Source: Alcanivorax sp. DSM 26293
GTDB lineage: Bacteria; Pseudomonadota; Gammaproteobacteria; Pseudomonadales; Alcanivoracaceae
Reading direction: 5' to 3'
Assembly (NCBI RefSeq): GCF_900107995.1
Contig: NZ_FNUM01000001.1
Span: forward strand, 569,695 to 633,694
Length of the DNA: 64,000 nt
How positions within the stretch are numbered: the stretch's first letter is position 1; each line of letters opens with the position of its first letter. Both the position numbers and the translations under genes were made by a program. This document shows positions 2,415 through 56,720 of the stretch, one piece after another. The notes below the pieces were generated by a model. That model did not search any database, was not told the DNA's origin, and saw only the letters and a program-made list of their open reading frames with translations.

Positions 2415-4181
2415 ATGTTCCGTCGTATCGCTCTGCTGGCGGGGTTGGTCACTCTTCCCTTTTCCAGCCCCCTCGCTGACACCGCCACCCCCCGTATTGT
2501 GGGTGGCGAACCGGCACCTGACCGCTGGCCGTGGATGGCCCAGGTGGCCGTGGATGATCCCAGTGTGAGCGGCTATCTGCTCTGCGGCGCCAGCCACCTG
2601 AGTCCGGAATGGCTGGTGACTGCCGCCCATTGCATGGAATACCTGAACGGCGATCCCGCGGAAGAGAGTCGTACCTTCGTGTTTATCGGCGACCGGGATC
2701 GCAATAACATTCCGCAAAACGGCATCCCTGTCAGACGGATCCTCATTCACCGCCAATATCAGAACCTGAACCGCGACCTGGCCCTGCTGCGTATCGATAC
2801 CCGCACCAACACCCGCTGGCCCAGCATTATCAGCGAGGAACGTTTTGAGGCGCTGGAACAGCAAAACACTGCTGAGCTGGATGAGTCTGTGACAGCTCTC
2901 GGATGGGGGGACACCGGGAATGGCAGCCTCAGCAATGTGTTGCAAGAGGTGCAACTGGACTACATCCCCCAGCAACGATGCCGTGCGCTCTCGAGCCTGA
3001 CCATCACCGACTTTGCCGTGTGTGCCGCCGAGCTGAATCCTCAGGACGGTGTCCAGCAGGATTCCTGCTTCGGTGACAGCGGCGGCCCCCTGTTTCTGGG
3101 CCGTGATCCTCAACCCTGGCTGGTGGGCCTGACCAGTTTCGGCCTGCGCAACTGCGCCACCGGTGCGCCGTCCGGTTATACCCATTTGTCTGCGGAGACC
3201 CGGGAGCTGGAAGTATTGACCGCTCTGGAAGGGATTCCGCTGGTGGATCTACTCCCCGAATGGACAACACCACCACCGCAGTACTATTACCAACCCCCCG
3301 GCGGCAGCCAGACCCTCACCCTGGCCCTGAAGAATGGCAGCCAGGAAAACCCTGCCACTGACCCGGCACTGGCCTTCAGCCTCAGCGGTAACACGGTGGC
3401 CAGTGGCGACTGGTCCGGGTGCGGCGGCTTGCTCTCTGGCAACCGCTGTCGCCTCGCAGACAACCTGTCCGCCGAGGGCAGCCTTATCCGGGATCTGGTC
3501 ATTGACGGTAACGGCGGCGCCGATCAGGTGGTGACCGTGGGCATCACCGCCAGCGCCATCGAGGATGATTACCGGCGTCGCAATAATCGCATTGAGCAAC
3601 GAGTGGTGTTCTCCGACAAGCCGGACCTGGCCCTCTCGGCAGTCCAGCAGAGTGGCAGTGCCAATGAGACCCGGGTCGTCGTCACGCTCACTAACCGCTC
3701 CACGATCAATCTTGCTGGCAATGGTGAGGTCCGCTTTGCCCTGCCAAGGAACACCACCTTGAGCAACGCCGACGCACTGGGTTGTTCACTGTCCAACCCG
3801 GTACGCTGTCCGGCAGGCAATGTCCCCGCCTCGTCCAGCCGAACCCTCAACCTGATTTTTGCTTCGGATACCGGTGACAGTCAGAGCATCACCTTGAGCG
3901 GTTTCTCTGCTGACGGGGATGTACCCAATGATAGCGACTCCCGTGTCACCCTGACCCTGCGTTACCCTTCAGCGGCCCCGGCCCCAGGCGGTGGCAGTAG
4001 CGGCTTTGGCGGTGGTGGTGGTGGCGCACCAGGCCTTCTCACTGTGCTGGCCGGGTTGCTGCTGGCGTTGCGCGGCCTTCCTGCAAAAAAACAACAGCGC
4101 CAGCCCCTCCCTATCCCGTTGGAGCCTTGTTCACAAGGCGAAGGCCATTCGCTTTGCGAGCAAAGCTCCAACGGAGTCTGA
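2415..4181 (+). CDS. Secreted trypsin-like serine protease with GlyGly-CTERM sorting signal
   Basis: A 588-residue S1-family protease. A signal peptide covers about residues 1-21 and the mature-end motif IVGG is at 28-31. The catalytic triad is His72 (TAAHC), Asp121 (RDLALLRI) and Ser222 (GDSGGP). Two beta-rich repeat regions of about 120 residues follow (300-530). The C-terminus has the GlyGly-CTERM layout: a Gly-rich stretch, a hydrophobic helix, then basic residues. Such tails are substrates of rhombosortase, and a candidate lies at 46255-46866. Unusually, the protein continues for about 25 residues past the basic cluster, and that tail is translated from a REP-like palindrome (see repeat at 4116). 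The neighbouring gene converges 8 bp downstream. Confidence 0.93.
   Translation: MFRRIALLAGLVTLPFSSPLADTATPRIVGGEPAPDRWPWMAQVAVDDPSVSGYLLCGASHLSPEWLVTAAHCMEYLNGDPAEESRTFVFIGDRDRNNIPQNGIPVRRILIHRQYQNLNRDLALLRIDTRTNTRWPSIISEERFEALEQQNTAELDESVTALGWGDTGNGSLSNVLQEVQLDYIPQQRCRALSSLTITDFAVCAAELNPQDGVQQDSCFGDSGGPLFLGRDPQPWLVGLTSFGLRNCATGAPSGYTHLSAETRELEVLTALEGIPLVDLLPEWTTPPPQYYYQPPGGSQTLTLALKNGSQENPATDPALAFSLSGNTVASGDWSGCGGLLSGNRCRLADNLSAEGSLIRDLVIDGNGGADQVVTVGITASAIEDDYRRRNNRIEQRVVFSDKPDLALSAVQQSGSANETRVVVTLTNRSTINLAGNGEVRFALPRNTTLSNADALGCSLSNPVRCPAGNVPASSSRTLNLIFASDTGDSQSITLSGFSADGDVPNDSDSRVTLTLRYPSAAPAPGGGSSGFGGGGGGAPGLLTVLAGLLLALRGLPAKKQQRQPLPIPLEPCSQGEGHSLCEQSSNGV
4116..4173. repeat. REP-like palindrome inside the 3' end of the protease gene
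   Basis: The 5' arm begins CCGTTGGAGCCTTG and the 3' arm ends AAAGCTCCAACGG, forming an imperfect hairpin. The same element, with TTGGAGCCTTGC and GCAAGGCTCCAA arms, lies between genes at 56652-56720. Here it is in frame and encodes the last residues of the protease (around PLEPCSQGEG to the stop). Confidence 0.8.
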
Positions 4182-4189
4182 CGCTGTCG

Positions 4190-5194
4190 CTACTGCTCAC
4201 GACGAAACTGCGGCAGCGACGCCAGAATATCCAGGGCATGACGACGCTTCTCCGGGTCGAACAGATCCACGGTTACCATCAGTTCATCCACTTCCACGGT
4301 ATCCAGCAATTGATCCAGCTCCCCCTGAATCGTGCTGGCAGTCCCCAGCAATTGCAGGGCCAGAAAGCCTCTGACCCCGTCTTCTTCCTGCGGATTCCAT
4401 AGGCCCTGCATGCTCTCCACTGGCGGACGCATCCACAGGGGCTGCCCCCGGAACAGGGACAGAATGCGCTGATAGCTGGTGGTGGCCAGAAAACGGGCCT
4501 CCTCATCGGTTTCCGCCGCCACCGCCGGTACCGCCAGCATGGCGTAGGGCTTGTCCAGCTGCGCCGACGGCTGAAACTGCTCCCGGTAGAGACGCAACGC
4601 CTCGCGATACAATCGCGGCGCAAAATGCCCGGCAAAGGCATAGGGCAACCCCCGCTGGGCCGCCAGCTGGGCGCTATAGAGGCTGGACCCCAGCAACCAG
4701 ATCGGCACCTCGGTGCCGGCACCGGGAATGGCGTTGACCGACCGGGAACGATCCAGCGGCCCCAAAAGCCGCTGCAATTCGGCCACGTCACGGGGGAACT
4801 GCTCGGCACCCAGACCCTCGCGGCGCAGGGCGCGGCTGGTCATCGGGTCGGTGCCCGGGGCCCGCCCCAACCCCAGATCAATCCGGCCGGGATGCAGGAT
4901 TTCCAGGGTCCCGAACTGTTCGGCGATAACCAGAGGCGGGTGGTTAGGCAACATCACTCCACCGGAGCCCACCCGGATGGTCTCCGTGGCATTGGCGATA
5001 TGACCGATCAGCACCGCGGTGGCCGCACTGCTGATGCCCTCCATGTTGTGATGCTCGGCCAGCCAGAAGCGCTTGAAGCCCAGGGCTTGCGCATGGCGGG
5101 CATAGGCCACGCTGTTAGCCAGGGTCTGCCCGATGGTGTCACCCTCACGGACGGAGGCCAGTTCCAGCAGGGAAAACGGCAGGGATGCAGCCAC
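4190..5194 (-). CDS. LLM-class flavin-dependent oxidoreductase (luciferase-like family)
   Basis: A 334-residue bacterial-luciferase-like protein, expected to be a TIM-barrel using reduced FMN. The N-terminus ([13 protein letters not shown]), the segment FWLAEHHNM near residue 50 and [20 protein letters not shown] near 95 are typical of the MsnO8/YhbW-type subgroup, as is [12 protein letters not shown]. The substrate cannot be told from sequence. The start is the GTG at 5194-5192, preceded by AAGGAG six bases upstream; an upstream reading-frame extension has no such site. It converges with the protease gene, the stop codons being 8 bp apart. Confidence 0.88.
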
Positions 5195-5405
5195 AGAGTG
5201 CTCCTTGATGGCAGCCAAAGGGATTGAGTCGGGCTCACAGTAACATGCATGAGCGCCACCCTGAATCAGGTTCGCGCATGCCGGGCCTGTGGCGGCCACA
5301 GAGACGGGAAAGCGCCCTCCCCTTGGCGGCAGGCCCGGCCCGTCTTGTTTGCCCTGGCACCGCCCTATATTCTCCCCGGTTTGCTGATCATTCCGGGAGA
5401 ACGCC

Positions 5406-7325
5406 TTGAAGACCACGCCGAGTTACCGCGCCGATATCGAAGGGCTACGTGCGCTGGCCGTTGTCCTGGTGATTCTCTATCACTATGAGGTTCCCGGCAT
5501 CACCGGCGGTTTTATCGGTGTGGACGTGTTCTTTGTCATTTCCGGGTTTGTGATCACCCAGCTTCTACAGCGGGCGTTTGAAAAAGGCACCTTTCGGTTT
5601 CGCGATTTTTACGCCCGTCGTATCCGGCGACTGGTGCCCCTGTTCCTGCTGGTGTCCACGGTCACCTTCCTGATGATCTCGCCCTTCTATATCGGCGATG
5701 CCTACTACATCTTTGCCAAGAGCTGGCTGTCCTCCCTGGTGGGCCTGAGCAACATTTACTATTTCCAGGAACTGAGCCAGTACTTCGCCCCGGAAACCCG
5801 CTCCCTGTCCCTGCTGCACACCTGGTCGCTGGCGGTGGAAGAGCAGTTCTACCTGATCTGGCCGCTGGCCCTGTATCTGGCCTACCGGTTCGGTAAGGGG
5901 CGTGACGGTCACTGGCCGTTCCGCATCACCCTGGTCGGGACTTTTGCGCTGTCCGTGTATCTTGCCAGCGCCCACCCTGCTGCCGCCTATTACCTGCTGC
6001 CCGCCCGGTTATTCGAGTTTATGCTTGGCACCGGCGTGGCCCTGTTCAGCCGTCAGCTTCCGGCCTTGAACCGACCCAGTGTCGAGATTTTGGCAGGCCT
6101 GGGGCTGGCCATGATCATCGCCACCGGCCTGCTGCTGACCAAGCACGATCACTTCCCCGGCTATAACGCCCTGTGGCCGACCCTGGGGACGGCGATGGTG
6201 ATCTATGCGGGTCTGCACCAGACCCACACTCTCACCGCCCGCCTTCTCAGTCTGCCGGTGATGGTGTTTCTGGGCGGTATCTCCTATTCGCTGTACCTGT
6301 GGCACTGGCCGCCGGTGGCGCTATTGCACTATCAACTGATCGAAATCACCTGGCCCATCCGGCTAGGGCTCATGGCGCTGGTGCTACTGCTGTCATGGCT
6401 GAGCTACCGCTTCGTGGAAAACCGCTACCGGCATCGCCCCTGGAGTTTCAAGAAATCCTTCATGGTGTTCATCTTCGTGCCGCTGCTGATCATCTGGGCC
6501 ATCCAGTCCACCATCCGCATTGCCGATGACCTGAGCTTTCGCATCTCCGAAGAACGTCGCGAGCTCTACACCATCATCGCCCAGAACAATGCCGCCGATC
6601 TGTACAAACGCTGCTTCAAGGGTGATCCGAGAGAATTCAACAAGGGCAAGGCCTGCCGGTTCGGCGCCGAACCGGAGAACGGCCAGCCGGATGCCATGCT
6701 GATCGGTGATTCCCATGCCATCGCCCTGCTGGGTTTCGTCGAGCAACTGATCGGTGAGCGCCATTCCATGCTGGTGGTGACCCGTGCGTCGACGCCTTTC
6801 GTGATCCCCGAACACTCAGCCAACGCCTTCTCCGACCCGGAAAAAACCCAACGCAACATCGCCCTGGCCGAGTACCTGCAACAACGCCCCATGACCGTGT
6901 TCGTCAATGCCTGGTGGAGCGCTTACCTGCAAAGTGATGCCTTCCAGCGCTATTTCGTGGACACCGTGGCCTGGCTTCACAGCCAGGGCCACAACGTTAT
7001 CCTCATTGAGGACGTACCCGAGCTACCCTCCTCGTCCTATGCGGAATGCTTGCTGAAAAATATGGACGACTGCTCCATTGATGCAGTGGAGGCGGAAGCG
7101 CATTTGAGCAATTTCTATCGCTTCAAGCGAACCGTACAGGCACGCTTCCCGGATATCACCTGGATTAACCCGAGAAAAGTCCTCTGCAATAAAAGCCGCT
7201 GCCAGACCGTACTGAATGGCATCCCCCTCTACCGGGACGAAAGTCATCTGAACCATGTGGGGTCCACAGAGATTGGTCGGGTGTATCTGGAACGGTTCGG
7301 GAATCCGCTACCCAAAAAACCTTGA
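5406..7325 (+). CDS. OafA/YrhL-type membrane acyltransferase fused to SGNH esterase domain
   Basis: A 639-residue inner-membrane protein. The acyltransferase-3 domain (about residues 1-370, ten or so membrane helices) opens with [19 protein letters not shown], whose Arg-His pattern is a family mark, and contains FFVISGFVI. The C-terminal periplasmic SGNH domain has GDSH with Ser436, and D611-x-x-H614 completes a hydrolase triad. Such proteins O-acylate lipopolysaccharide, exopolysaccharide or other glycans. No glycan gene cluster lies nearby, so the acceptor is unknown. The start is TTG at 5406 with GGGAGA five bases upstream. Confidence 0.9.
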
Positions 7326-7475: not shown

Positions 7476-9308
7476 ATGAAGTACCACTTGATTGCCGCTC
7501 TGGCTTCCACTCTGGCCTGCAGCACCTTGTTCGCTGCAACCGCCTCACCAAGAGTCGTCGGCGGGGACATCGCTGACAGCGACTGGAACACACTGGTTGC
7601 ATTGATTGATAAACAGGGGAAACAAGACGGCATCACTGAAGAGCACCCCTTCCCGGTAGGTAGAGGACACGTCTGCGGCGGCACCTTGCTGTCCCGGCAC
7701 TGGGTGCTAACCGCAGCGCACTGTGTCCGCTCCGGTGTCGTTACCACCCCTGCCAGTAACCTCGAAATCCTGGTGGGCAGCCAGACCCTGGATGTGCCGA
7801 CAAATAGTCCCATGCTGCTGGATGCAGCATCCGTTATTGTCCACGCCGGCTACAACGAAAATACCTTTGAAAACGATATCGCTCTGATCCGGCTCGCAGA
7901 ACCAGCGGAAACCGACAGCCCGAGCATCCACACCGGGGTACTGTCAAAGCTCGACACCGACAGCGCTATCGAAAACCTGGCCAGCTACGATGACATTCTG
8001 AGTGTATTGGGCTGGGGTGTTGCCACCTATGAGGATCACGACAACAACCCCATGACTCCCATGCGACCTGTGGCCTTTGTAGAGCTGCAGGAAGCAGCGC
8101 TGGACTATGTCACCAACGCATCTTGCCAGGCCACTATTGATCTCTATACCAATGGCGATCAGATACTGGACACCATGCTGTGCGCGAATGAGCCTAACCC
8201 GGATCAAGGCGATACCTTTGGGGAAGACTCCTGCCAGGGTGACAGCGGCGGCCCATTGCTGCTGACCGACGCGATACTGAATGACAGCCCCCAGGTCGGG
8301 ATTACCAGTTTCGGTTATTCCACCGATGGCAAATGTGGCGACCCGGAGATTCCCTCTATCTACACTCGGGTTTCCCAGTATCTGGACTGGATTGAGCAAC
8401 ATTCTGGTGCTGCCGAGCTGGCGCTGCGCGACCTCACCATTGCTGACGACGGCAATACTTTCCAGGGATTCGGCACCATCGATTTCCAGGTGCCGGTAGA
8501 AAACGCGGGCAGCCGTCCAGCAACTCAGTTCGCGCTATCTATCTCGCATCCCACCGAATTGACCCTGACCCCGTCTCCAGACCAAACCGGGCTTGCCTGC
8601 ACCCCGTCGGACAACGGAGTCACCGCATGTCAGTATGACGGCGCAGCCATCCCCGGCGGATCGAGCCAGCCGTTCGGCTTTACCGCCACGGACAGCAATA
8701 GCCAGAGCGATACCGACCTCCAGATAGAGGCCACGGTCGAGCTGGACAACCAACGGGACTACTACCGTTTGAACAACAGCGGCAACATTACCCTGCAACT
8801 TGGCCAACCGGCGCTGGCCATCGCCGCAGAGCCTGTCTGTCTCTCCCCCCGGAACGGTCAGGTAGAGATGCGTATCGAGGCAAGTCTGGCCAACCAGGAC
8901 CCCGTGATCGACTCTATTGGTAACCGTATTACCGGCCCATTGGATGAAGCCCTCACACTGGTAACCAAACTCAGCGCGGAATGCAGTACTGACGAAGGTC
9001 AATACACCTGCCAGCTCGGGCAACTGGATGCCAACCAGGAACTGGACGCCACAATCGTCATTCGGGCTGATGCCGAGACCACGACAACCCTGCTGATTCA
9101 GGTAGAAAACGATAACGGCGTGAAAGTCGGCTCCGTCACCGAGACCGAAGTGGCACTGGACTTCAGCCGTGAAGATCTGGACGCCTGTCCCGATGTCCCC
9201 CCCACTGCGACGCGTTCTCCGCGCAGCTCAGGCGGCGGAGGCGGCAGCCTTCCCCTGGGTCTGTTGTCCCTCATGGTGTTGCTGGGTCTGTACCGGCGCA
9301 AAGCCTGA
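7476..9308 (+). CDS. Second secreted trypsin-like protease with GlyGly-CTERM tail
   Basis: A 610-residue S1 protease related in layout to the one at 2415. The signal peptide spans about residues 1-22 and VVGG is at 27-30. The catalytic residues are His82 (TAAHC), Asp134 (ENDIALIRL) and Ser257 (GDSGGP). Beta-rich repeats follow (about 350-580). The extreme C-terminus is a textbook GlyGly-CTERM: SGGGGGSLPLG, a short hydrophobic helix and terminal YRRKA. It should be cleaved and possibly re-anchored by rhombosortase. I chose the ATG at 7476 because the signal peptide starts there; an in-frame start 41 codons earlier would bury it. A strong terminator follows 15 bp after the stop. Confidence 0.93.
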   Translation: MKYHLIAALASTLACSTLFAATASPRVVGGDIADSDWNTLVALIDKQGKQDGITEEHPFPVGRGHVCGGTLLSRHWVLTAAHCVRSGVVTTPASNLEILVGSQTLDVPTNSPMLLDAASVIVHAGYNENTFENDIALIRLAEPAETDSPSIHTGVLSKLDTDSAIENLASYDDILSVLGWGVATYEDHDNNPMTPMRPVAFVELQEAALDYVTNASCQATIDLYTNGDQILDTMLCANEPNPDQGDTFGEDSCQGDSGGPLLLTDAILNDSPQVGITSFGYSTDGKCGDPEIPSIYTRVSQYLDWIEQHSGAAELALRDLTIADDGNTFQGFGTIDFQVPVENAGSRPATQFALSISHPTELTLTPSPDQTGLACTPSDNGVTACQYDGAAIPGGSSQPFGFTATDSNSQSDTDLQIEATVELDNQRDYYRLNNSGNITLQLGQPALAIAAEPVCLSPRNGQVEMRIEASLANQDPVIDSIGNRITGPLDEALTLVTKLSAECSTDEGQYTCQLGQLDANQELDATIVIRADAETTTTLLIQVENDNGVKVGSVTETEVALDFSREDLDACPDVPPTATRSPRSSGGGGGSLPLGLLSLMVLLGLYRRKA

Positions 9309-44449: not shown

Positions 44450-44548
44450 TGTAGGAGCTATGCTTGCAGGGCGAACGACGGTGGCAAGTTTCCTGCCACG
44501 CAGTTGCCAACCCGAAGCCTCTTTGCCATGCGAGCATGGCTCCTACGG
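44450..44548. repeat. Inverted REP pair upstream of leuA
   Basis: TGTAGGAGCTATGCTTGCAG at 44449-44468 and its partner GCGAGCATGGCTCCTACGG near 44532-44549. The stems differ from the main REP type. It separates the DUF3592 gene stop from leuA. Confidence 0.75.
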
Positions 44549-44576: not shown

Positions 44577-46304
44577 CTACACCAGTCGCAGGGTGCGCAG
44601 CACGGCTTCACGCAGGGCCTCTCCCGCCTCTCGCCCGGCGATTCCCTCTGCCAACCGGATCTTTTTGCCATCCACCTCGGCGATCAGCGTCACGTACTCG
44701 GTGCGGCGGCCATTGGTGGTGCTGCTCATGCCACTCTTGAGCACGACCTGCTCCGCCCTCAGCAGCTGTCCCTTGCGGGTAAACAGGGGCACACCCAGCC
44801 AGCGGCGCAGGCTGCGCACTTCGCCACCGCGAATCCATACATCCAGTCCGCGCCCCAGCGTAAAGAGGGTGCTGCCGACAATGGCATAGCCAATCAACCC
44901 GAAGATGCTGCCCATGACATACAGCATGAAACCCTCGCTGGCGGCAGCGATAAACAGCCCGGTGCCCACGGCGGCGAAAATACCCCCAAACACCAGTAGC
45001 GCCAGCTTCATGCCCAGGTGTCGGCCCGGACCGCTTTCCAGGTGCAGACCCTGGCCGGTCTGCGCCACCCGGATCTGTTCGTTGGCGGACTCCAGCGCGT
45101 CCACCTGACGCTCGCGCTGGTCGGCCATGACATGGGACTCCGGCAGACGGAAACGGCTTTCCCCCTGCCCTGCCACCACCGGGATATCCCAGCTGCGTTT
45201 CAGCTTGCGCTCTTCTACCCTGCCCTCCAGCTCTACGCGCCAGCAGATATAATTGCGGCCACTTCCGGAGGTCGGCGGCTGCTCCGCCGGCACATCGAAA
45301 CAGAACAGAATATCGCTGCCTTGCTGGGTGGGCTGGCAAAAGGCTCGCTGGTCAATCTGCCAGAGAATGTCTTCCACGGTCTTGCGGTCCTTGCCGCTGC
45401 CGCTTTCCCGGCCACGGATACAGCTTAGCCATACGTCCATGTCCGTCTCCCGGGGCAGTGCCTTGCCCAGGCGGATGACGCCACCCACCTGCCCCCCGGC
45501 ATGGCCCGGTTCCGGGTCCAGCTCCAGGGGAGTGGGGCCGAAAAACCGGTAATTACGGCGCATTTTCCAGCCTGCCCAGGCAATGCCGGCGCCCACGGCG
45601 GGAAACAGCAGCACCATCAGAATCGCATAGTCACCCCGGCTGACCTTATCCCAGACGGCCAGATACGCTGGCGACGGCAGCAGGATGAAAATGGCGCCAA
45701 ACCCCACCAGAAACCAGTGACCGGATTTCTCATTGCTGTGGTACTGGCCGCCATCTGCCAGCTCGGCCTTGCCCTTGCTGTCCCGGTTAAACAGAAACAT
45801 CAGGCCGCCGCCCACCAAGGCAAAGACACCACCGAAGGCCAGGCCAAACACCAGTGAGCCCCAACGCAGAGTGCGATCCAGAAACGCCTCGGACGGATTC
45901 GCCGGGTTGACCCAGGCCAAGACGGTGCGTCCGTGGGTGCGAGCCGACTCCAGACGGCGGGCCAGACGCTGCCAGTAATCGTCGAAATTATCGCTGCCGC
46001 CATACTGGCTCACCGTATCGTTGGCGTAGCTTCGCCCGTTATAGTCATAACGGTAGCGGGCGCTGACGCTGTAAGTGGTGGAACCGTCAGAATAACTGCG
46101 ATTGAGAGTACTGCTAAGCACGGTGGCCGGCACCCTGTCCCAGCTACCGGACTGCCAGTATTGAAAGACGGGTTTGAGTCCCACAAAGAACATCACCGCC
46201 AGGCCTGCCACCAGGAAAACCCCGGGAAACAGGATGGTCATACACCCTGATGCCTTATCGTCTTTCTGCCCGTCCTGTTCTGTTTTTTCTGCGGTATTCG
46301 ACAC
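44577..46304 (-). CDS. DUF3592 membrane protein, overlaps rhombosortase gene
   Basis: A 575-residue protein. The N-terminal part carries a DUF3592 domain: one transmembrane helix near residue 30, a short periplasmic domain with WDRVPATVLSSTLNRSY and a Tyr-rich strand, then a second helix. Two more helix pairs lie near 190-240 and around 440-480. The C-terminal domain has LAEGIAGREAGEALREAVLRTL. Function unknown. GTG start at 46304 has GGGGGA seven bases upstream. It overlaps the end of the rhombosortase gene by 50 bp, suggesting shared expression. Confidence 0.78.
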   Translation of the reverse strand: MSNTAEKTEQDGQKDDKASGCMTILFPGVFLVAGLAVMFFVGLKPVFQYWQSGSWDRVPATVLSSTLNRSYSDGSTTYSVSARYRYDYNGRSYANDTVSQYGGSDNFDDYWQRLARRLESARTHGRTVLAWVNPANPSEAFLDRTLRWGSLVFGLAFGGVFALVGGGLMFLFNRDSKGKAELADGGQYHSNEKSGHWFLVGFGAIFILLPSPAYLAVWDKVSRGDYAILMVLLFPAVGAGIAWAGWKMRRNYRFFGPTPLELDPEPGHAGGQVGGVIRLGKALPRETDMDVWLSCIRGRESGSGKDRKTVEDILWQIDQRAFCQPTQQGSDILFCFDVPAEQPPTSGSGRNYICWRVELEGRVEERKLKRSWDIPVVAGQGESRFRLPESHVMADQRERQVDALESANEQIRVAQTGQGLHLESGPGRHLGMKLALLVFGGIFAAVGTGLFIAAASEGFMLYVMGSIFGLIGYAIVGSTLFTLGRGLDVWIRGGEVRSLRRWLGVPLFTRKGQLLRAEQVVLKSGMSSTTNGRRTEYVTLIAEVDGKKIRLAEGIAGREAGEALREAVLRTLRLV

Positions 46305-46866
46305 CGGTGATTCCCCCAAACAACAATACTCCGGCCAGGGCACCGTACAGGTGGGCATTCACATAGACCCGCCCGTCGATCCAGCTACGGAGATAATCCA
46401 CGTCATAGCCTGCCTGCTGCTCAGTGACAATGCGCCCGGCGATCACCAGTAACACCAGCGAATGCAACCAGGGGTTACCCCGCCAGCCGATTAACAGACA
46501 GAAAACCAGCAAGCCATGAAGAATACCGGACAGGCCCACATAGTGCTGTAAACCGGTATCCAGAAAATACAACGCCAGGCCGGTGGCCAGCCCGCAGAAC
46601 AGCAGCCAGCTCCAGAAACGCCCTCGATCCAGCAGGTCCGTGAAGAAATAACCGCACAGCACCAGCCCGGCCAGATTGAGCAGCATATGCCAGTGATTGA
46701 GATGCACCAGATGGCAGGTCAGCAGCCGCCAGATCTGACCCTGCTCGATGGCCCCACGGTCAAACCCCAGCCAGGGGTTAACCCATGCATGGGCCAGACC
46801 CAACACCACCATGAGGATCACCATCAGGGCGAAGTGCAGGCGGAGTTTGTTGTCTCTGGGTTGCAT
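46255..46866 (-). CDS. rrtA: Rhombosortase (GlyGly-CTERM processing rhomboid protease)
   Basis: A rhomboid-family intramembrane serine protease of the small rhombosortase type. It has 203 residues and about six helices. The catalytic Ser113 is in YVGLSGILHG and His172 in VNAHLYGALAG. WRLLTCHLVHLNHWHMLLN (46-64) is the rhombosortase loop with the conserved H-x-x-H-x-N-x-x-H. It should cut GlyGly-CTERM tails such as those of the proteases at 2415 and 7476. ATG at 46866 was chosen; no good ribosome site is visible. The next gene overlaps its 3' end. Confidence 0.9.
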   Translation of the reverse strand: MQPRDNKLRLHFALMVILMVVLGLAHAWVNPWLGFDRGAIEQGQIWRLLTCHLVHLNHWHMLLNLAGLVLCGYFFTDLLDRGRFWSWLLFCGLATGLALYFLDTGLQHYVGLSGILHGLLVFCLLIGWRGNPWLHSLVLLVIAGRIVTEQQAGYDVDYLRSWIDGRVYVNAHLYGALAGVLLFGGITGVEYRRKNRTGRAERR

Positions 46867-46948
46867 GGAGGTACCGGCTGAAAGAGAGCGGTCATTATGG
46901 GGAGGCAGCAATAGAAGGTGCAACCCAAGCCGAGCCCCAACAGCCTCC

Positions 46949-56651: not shown

Positions 56652-56720
56652 CCCGTTGGAGCCTTGCTCGCAAGGCGAATGAGGTTAACGCTTCGCCTTG
56701 CAAGCAAGGCTCCAACGGGA
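56652..56720. repeat. REP-like palindrome, TTGGAGCC type
   Basis: CCGTTGGAGCCTTGCTCGCA and its inverted partner GCAAGCAAGGCTCCAACGG. The same element as the one inside the protease gene at 4116. Confidence 0.85.

Follow-up and report, generated by a model that had tools for sequence, protein, structure and literature searches.

The trypsin-family protease encoded in the 64,000-nt stretch of Alcanivorax sp. DSM 26293 DNA analysed here (the window), which sits within a 3.7-Mb genome, ends in residues that a first-pass annotation took for the in-frame reading of a REP-like palindrome. How might a repeat come to be read as a protein C-terminus, and what would such a tail mean for the processing and synthesis of the protease?

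The protease C-terminus and its tail

By its sequence, the product of the 2415–4181 ORF carries a Gly-rich motif, a transmembrane (TM) segment and a basic cluster near its C-terminus, where the parts follow one another as GGGSSGFGGGGGG-APGLLTVLAGLLLAL-RGLPAKKQQR-QPLPIPLEPCSQGEGHSLCEQSSNGV. Residue 562, at the end of RGLPAKKQQR, is the ancestral C-terminus as judged from orthologue sequences, and the tail past it comprises 26 residues (codons 563–588, 4101–4178), two of them Cys; a Cys-containing tail after the basic cluster had been noted at first reading, with a length of ~20 residues that fits the part derived from the palindrome proper but not the whole. The repeat lies between the 3′ ends of the protease and a convergent luciferase-like monooxygenase ORF. 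The features concerned are as follows.

2415–4181, plus strand: trypsin-family secreted protease ORF, 588 aa (ORF listing; Pfam PF00089, E = 8e-36; orthologues 80, 79 and 75% identical)
3984–4100, plus strand: GlyGly-CTERM-like region, with a Gly/Ser-rich stretch, hydrophobic APGLLTVLAGLLLAL and basic RGLPAKKQQR (sequence)
4101–4103, plus strand: CAG (Gln563), replacing the putative ancestral stop codon (alignment, orthologue ends)
4104–4178, plus strand: apparently once-intergenic DNA read as tail, residues 564–588, PLPIPLEPCSQGEGHSLCEQSSNGV (ORF listing, orthologue comparison)
4116–4174, no strand: REPIN, an inverted REP pair, with REPs at 4118–4142 (plus, two mismatches) and 4148–4172 (minus, no mismatches) relative to the genome consensus
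4179–4181, plus strand: current TGA stop, directly past the REPIN (sequence, ORF listing)
4190–5416, minus strand: convergent luciferase-like monooxygenase ORF (PF00296, E = 1.2e-40; the extent is an upper limit)
46255–46923, minus strand: rhombosortase (TIGR03902, 148 bits, cut-off 84; match at 46258–46923)
56653–56718, no strand: second intact REPIN of the window, between genes (repeat search of the window)

The repeat and its family

The repeat in the protease tail is a REPIN, being an inverted REP pair of a kind present in many, mostly extragenic copies in a genome with a REP-flanked RAYT gene, and the first-pass view of a REP-like palindrome read in frame is thereby borne out. Its arms (4116–4142 and 4148–4174) measure 27 nt each, are 85% complementary and are separated by 5 nt, and as RNA the region is predicted to fold with −41.6 kcal/mol (z = −7.5), a value equalled by none of 200 shuffles. 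The outer 10-mer has four occurrences in the window, where 0.2 would be expected, and the second copy, placed at first between genes near 56652, was recovered there at 56653–56718. A weaker third REPIN, with three and four mismatches in its REPs, was also seen at 44451–44546. Allowing up to three mismatches, the REP consensus GTTGGAGCYTTGCNNGCAARGCGAA has ~212 copies (101 + 111) in the window's genome (G000) and the reversed pattern used as control has none; two REPs are present in 44 of 65 elements sampled, and 66 of the 67 sampled from this genome are extragenic. Elsewhere in the chromosome, at G000:C7:230033–230260, lies a gene for a RAYT transposase (NF047646, 121 bits, cut-off 80), which also matches the solved TnpArep structure 4er8 and has REPs on both sides, at 229337–229832 (a tandem array) and at 230420–230444. 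The REP abounds in the related species G003, G004, G014, G012 and G016; most others of the genus have almost none.

These features are those of the REPINs or REP doublets described with RAYTs (Bertels and Rainey, 2011; PMC3116915), alike in inverted REPs separated by a short spacer, in many and mostly extragenic copies and in a REP-flanked RAYT; the present case differs in that one copy stands in a reading frame, the neighbouring gene apparently having lost its stop, and is known at the level of sequence. The consensus starts GTTGGAGC, that is, GTTG, and so lacks the terminal tag of the GTAG REP superfamily, for which the variants GYAG, GYRG, GTRG and GTMG, with GTGG in one family, have been named but not GTTG (PMC3733652). 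A search of Rfam at the palindrome matched no family. An intrinsic terminator at the hairpin was considered and rejected, since neither strand has a U-run past it and a terminator scan returned none.

Some further observations concern the RAYT neighbourhood. The REPs beside the gene (G000:C7:229337–230444) are regularly spaced at 117–118 bp, and a similar array occurs at G004:C1:185908–186638. A frame open upstream of the likely RAYT start (L082:2881–3552, minus strand) reads through a REP in the frame giving PLEPCSQGE, a peptide that it has in common with the protease tail; this stretch is probably leader rather than coding sequence.

Orthologue ends and the history of the tail

The three closest protease orthologues (G004, 80% identity; G016, 79%; G003, 75%) have a TAG that aligns to the window CAG at codon 563 (4101–4103), and the alignment places a TAA in the same column in a fourth, G014, in keeping with the early expectation that orthologues would stop at the basic cluster. 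Behind the aligned stop, G003 and G004 have the REPIN 12 nt away, as in the window, and G014 has one at 5 nt; in G016 it is decayed. When G004 and G003 are read past their stop in the tail frame, a stop is met within the element, so that their likeness to the window in this stretch is one of DNA and not of protein. The tail was absent from all 15 other orthologues compared, and orthologues sharing it at the protein level without the palindrome, the outcome that would have spoken against the first reading, were sought among them and not found. The protease relatives from named records are all Alcanivorax, A. jadensis T9 among them.

An intact stop with the REPIN behind it in relatives implies, by parsimony, that the REPIN came first and the loss of the stop second. 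Going beyond the first-pass annotation, the sequences thus indicate that the tail arose by loss of a stop codon ahead of an extragenic REPIN and not by insertion into the gene. By alignment, the common ancestor of the window lineage and its closest relatives would have had an ordinary extragenic REPIN 12 nt past the protease stop, between convergent genes. TAG would then have become CAG in the window lineage by a single T-to-C change, which is seen in the alignment and given its direction by parsimony, and, the REPIN being stop-free in the protease frame, the frame would have extended by 26 codons to the TGA just beyond.

Two other origins for the tail were weighed. Insertion of a REPIN into the gene's end, with the earlier stop displaced by it, has a precedent in other species, where REP elements lie wholly inside ORFs (PMC3733652), but we regard it as highly improbable here: G003 and G004 have the same REPIN behind an intact TAG and can be aligned across the site, and the lost stop lies 12 nt upstream of the element rather than at its edge. 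Somewhat less remote, yet still improbable, is a sequencing or assembly error at the CAG, with the true gene stopping at 4101–4103. The evidence for the change is one base in one assembly of the one genome of the species, and the CAG may accordingly reflect a base-calling error or a change confined to a single strain; against an error stand the openness of the tail frame to its end, where that frame is interrupted by stops in G004 and G003, and the rating of the genome as 100% complete and 0.05% contaminated. Loss of the stop ahead of a pre-existing REPIN, giving a tail that would be cytosolic, discarded at rhombosortase cleavage, near-neutral and specific to this lineage, is the account to which we give high overall probability.

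How often REPs enter reading frames was examined in 150 REP elements sampled from the best matches listed in five species (67 in G000, 52 in G003, 29 in G004 and one each in G016 and G014), with genes called by a hexamer score trained on the window rather than by curated annotation. One element, that of the protease, overlapped a coding-scored ORF and 149 lay outside. About ten ORFs had entered REPs on the first pass; those inspected other than the protease look by composition like antisense shadow ORFs, and under a stricter, non-overlapping gene call the protease was the sole ORF left running into a REP in the sampled stretches. No further REP-coded tail was found in the relatives sampled. 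Among gene 3′ ends adjoining a REP, 30 of 71 lie within 20 nt of it, a proximity also reported for other REP families (PMC3733652). REPINs have on average 4.5 of six frames open, compared with 2.3 after shuffling and 3.5 for stretches taken at random from the genome, so that loss of a stop before one would tend to yield a tail rather than a quick new stop.

Processing and translation of the extended protease

GlyGly-CTERM proteins are expected to be processed by rhombosortase, and one such enzyme is encoded in the same genome (46255–46923). Before residue 563, and in the orthologues, the protease has the features of such proteins, namely a Gly motif without Cys, a TM stretch and basic residues after it; in the window these do not form the extreme C-terminus, 36 residues being present from the first basic residue on. 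Up to E = 10, TIGR03501 matched neither the protease end, with or without the tail, nor two relatives. About 3.3 kb downstream, a second secreted protease (7479–9308, plus strand) has a regular GlyGly-CTERM end (TIGR03501, 18 bits, cut-off 15.5) and would be a natural comparison for processing. VesB of Vibrio cholerae is alike in being a secreted trypsin-family protease with a Gly-rich motif, TM helix, basic cluster and a rhombosortase in its genome, and in its model the Gly motif is periplasmic, the basic cluster cytosolic and the GlyGly-CTERM domain removed by rhombosortase (PMC6219818); the window protein differs from VesB-type proteases in having 36 residues rather than a few beyond the TM helix and in not matching TIGR03501. 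Placed after the TM helix and basic cluster, the added residues, including both Cys, would be expected in the cytosol, and, if the VesB pathway applies (PMC6219818), rhombosortase cleavage at the Gly-rich motif would discard them with the C-terminal peptide and leave the mature protease unchanged.

The number of residues from the first basic residue after the TM segment is 5–12 in 14 of the 15 other orthologues (10 in the close relatives), and 21 in that of G007, whose tail is unrelated in sequence to that of the window. Together with the 36 of the window protein, these lengths point to loose constraint here. The G007 tail, RRPLPQGRALNCGNAARISSA (L015), extends over the 3′ end of the convergent luciferase-like gene, which it reads in antisense.

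The tail might nonetheless alter membrane insertion or rhombosortase cleavage, leaving some protease uncut or cleaved by a different rhomboid protease. In GlyGly-CTERM proteins zero to five residues follow the TM helix, and in substrates of other rhomboids forty or more (PMC3237569), against 36 in the window protein; the net charge here is +1 against +2 to +4 in the orthologues; and a second rhomboid is reported to cut VesB at another site (PMC11389362). With the basic residues adjoining the TM helix retained and the natural 21-residue tail of G007 arguing for tolerance, we hold such an effect to be unlikely. About as doubtful is slowing or stalling of ribosomes at the 3′ end by the in-frame REPIN hairpin, with less protease made as a result of ribosome rescue. 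The predicted stability of that hairpin in the mRNA (−41.6 kcal/mol) speaks for it, as does work in E. coli in which Liang, Rudd and Deutscher, in 2015, reportedly found that REPs within ~15 nt of a stop codon cut translation through stalling; on the other side, ribosomes are able to open stable hairpins as they translate. Most likely the tail is close to neutral and confined to this lineage, its neutrality being a guess because so stable a hairpin within a coding region could stall ribosomes.

That REPs can encode protein segments, some at ORF ends (PMC3733652), and that C-termini can be extended by loss of a stop (PMC4494051), is already known. The REP-coded segments of the GTAG/CGTC families, including the Rickettsia palindromic elements, are likewise palindromic repeats read in frame; their dimers encode 20–30 residues and slightly over 10% lie at ORF ends (PMC3733652). 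Those repeats lie inside ORFs, whereas here the repeat is outside the gene in relatives and the stop would have been lost afterwards, and the Alcanivorax REP starts GTTG, not GTAG. A survey of stop losses in yeast and Drosophila (PMC4494051) likewise describes non-coding DNA becoming a protein C-terminus; the present case differs in being bacterial and in having co-opted a mobile-type repeat, stop-free in most frames. What is new is that the states before and after are both visible in related species.

It is a long shot that REPINs near stops act as ready-made, mostly stop-free extensions, giving a ~20-residue REP-coded tail upon stop loss in many genes, and that the protease tail has been kept as a means of tuning membrane retention or processing. 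From the closeness of REPINs to stops and their openness in most frames, further tails of this kind would be expected in genomes rich in REPs; the relatives sampled, however, had none. The protease itself provides a natural experiment on whether a long cytosolic tail is tolerated in GlyGly-CTERM processing, and would exemplify how an extragenic mobile-type repeat can turn into protein, the repeat coming first and the stop loss later.
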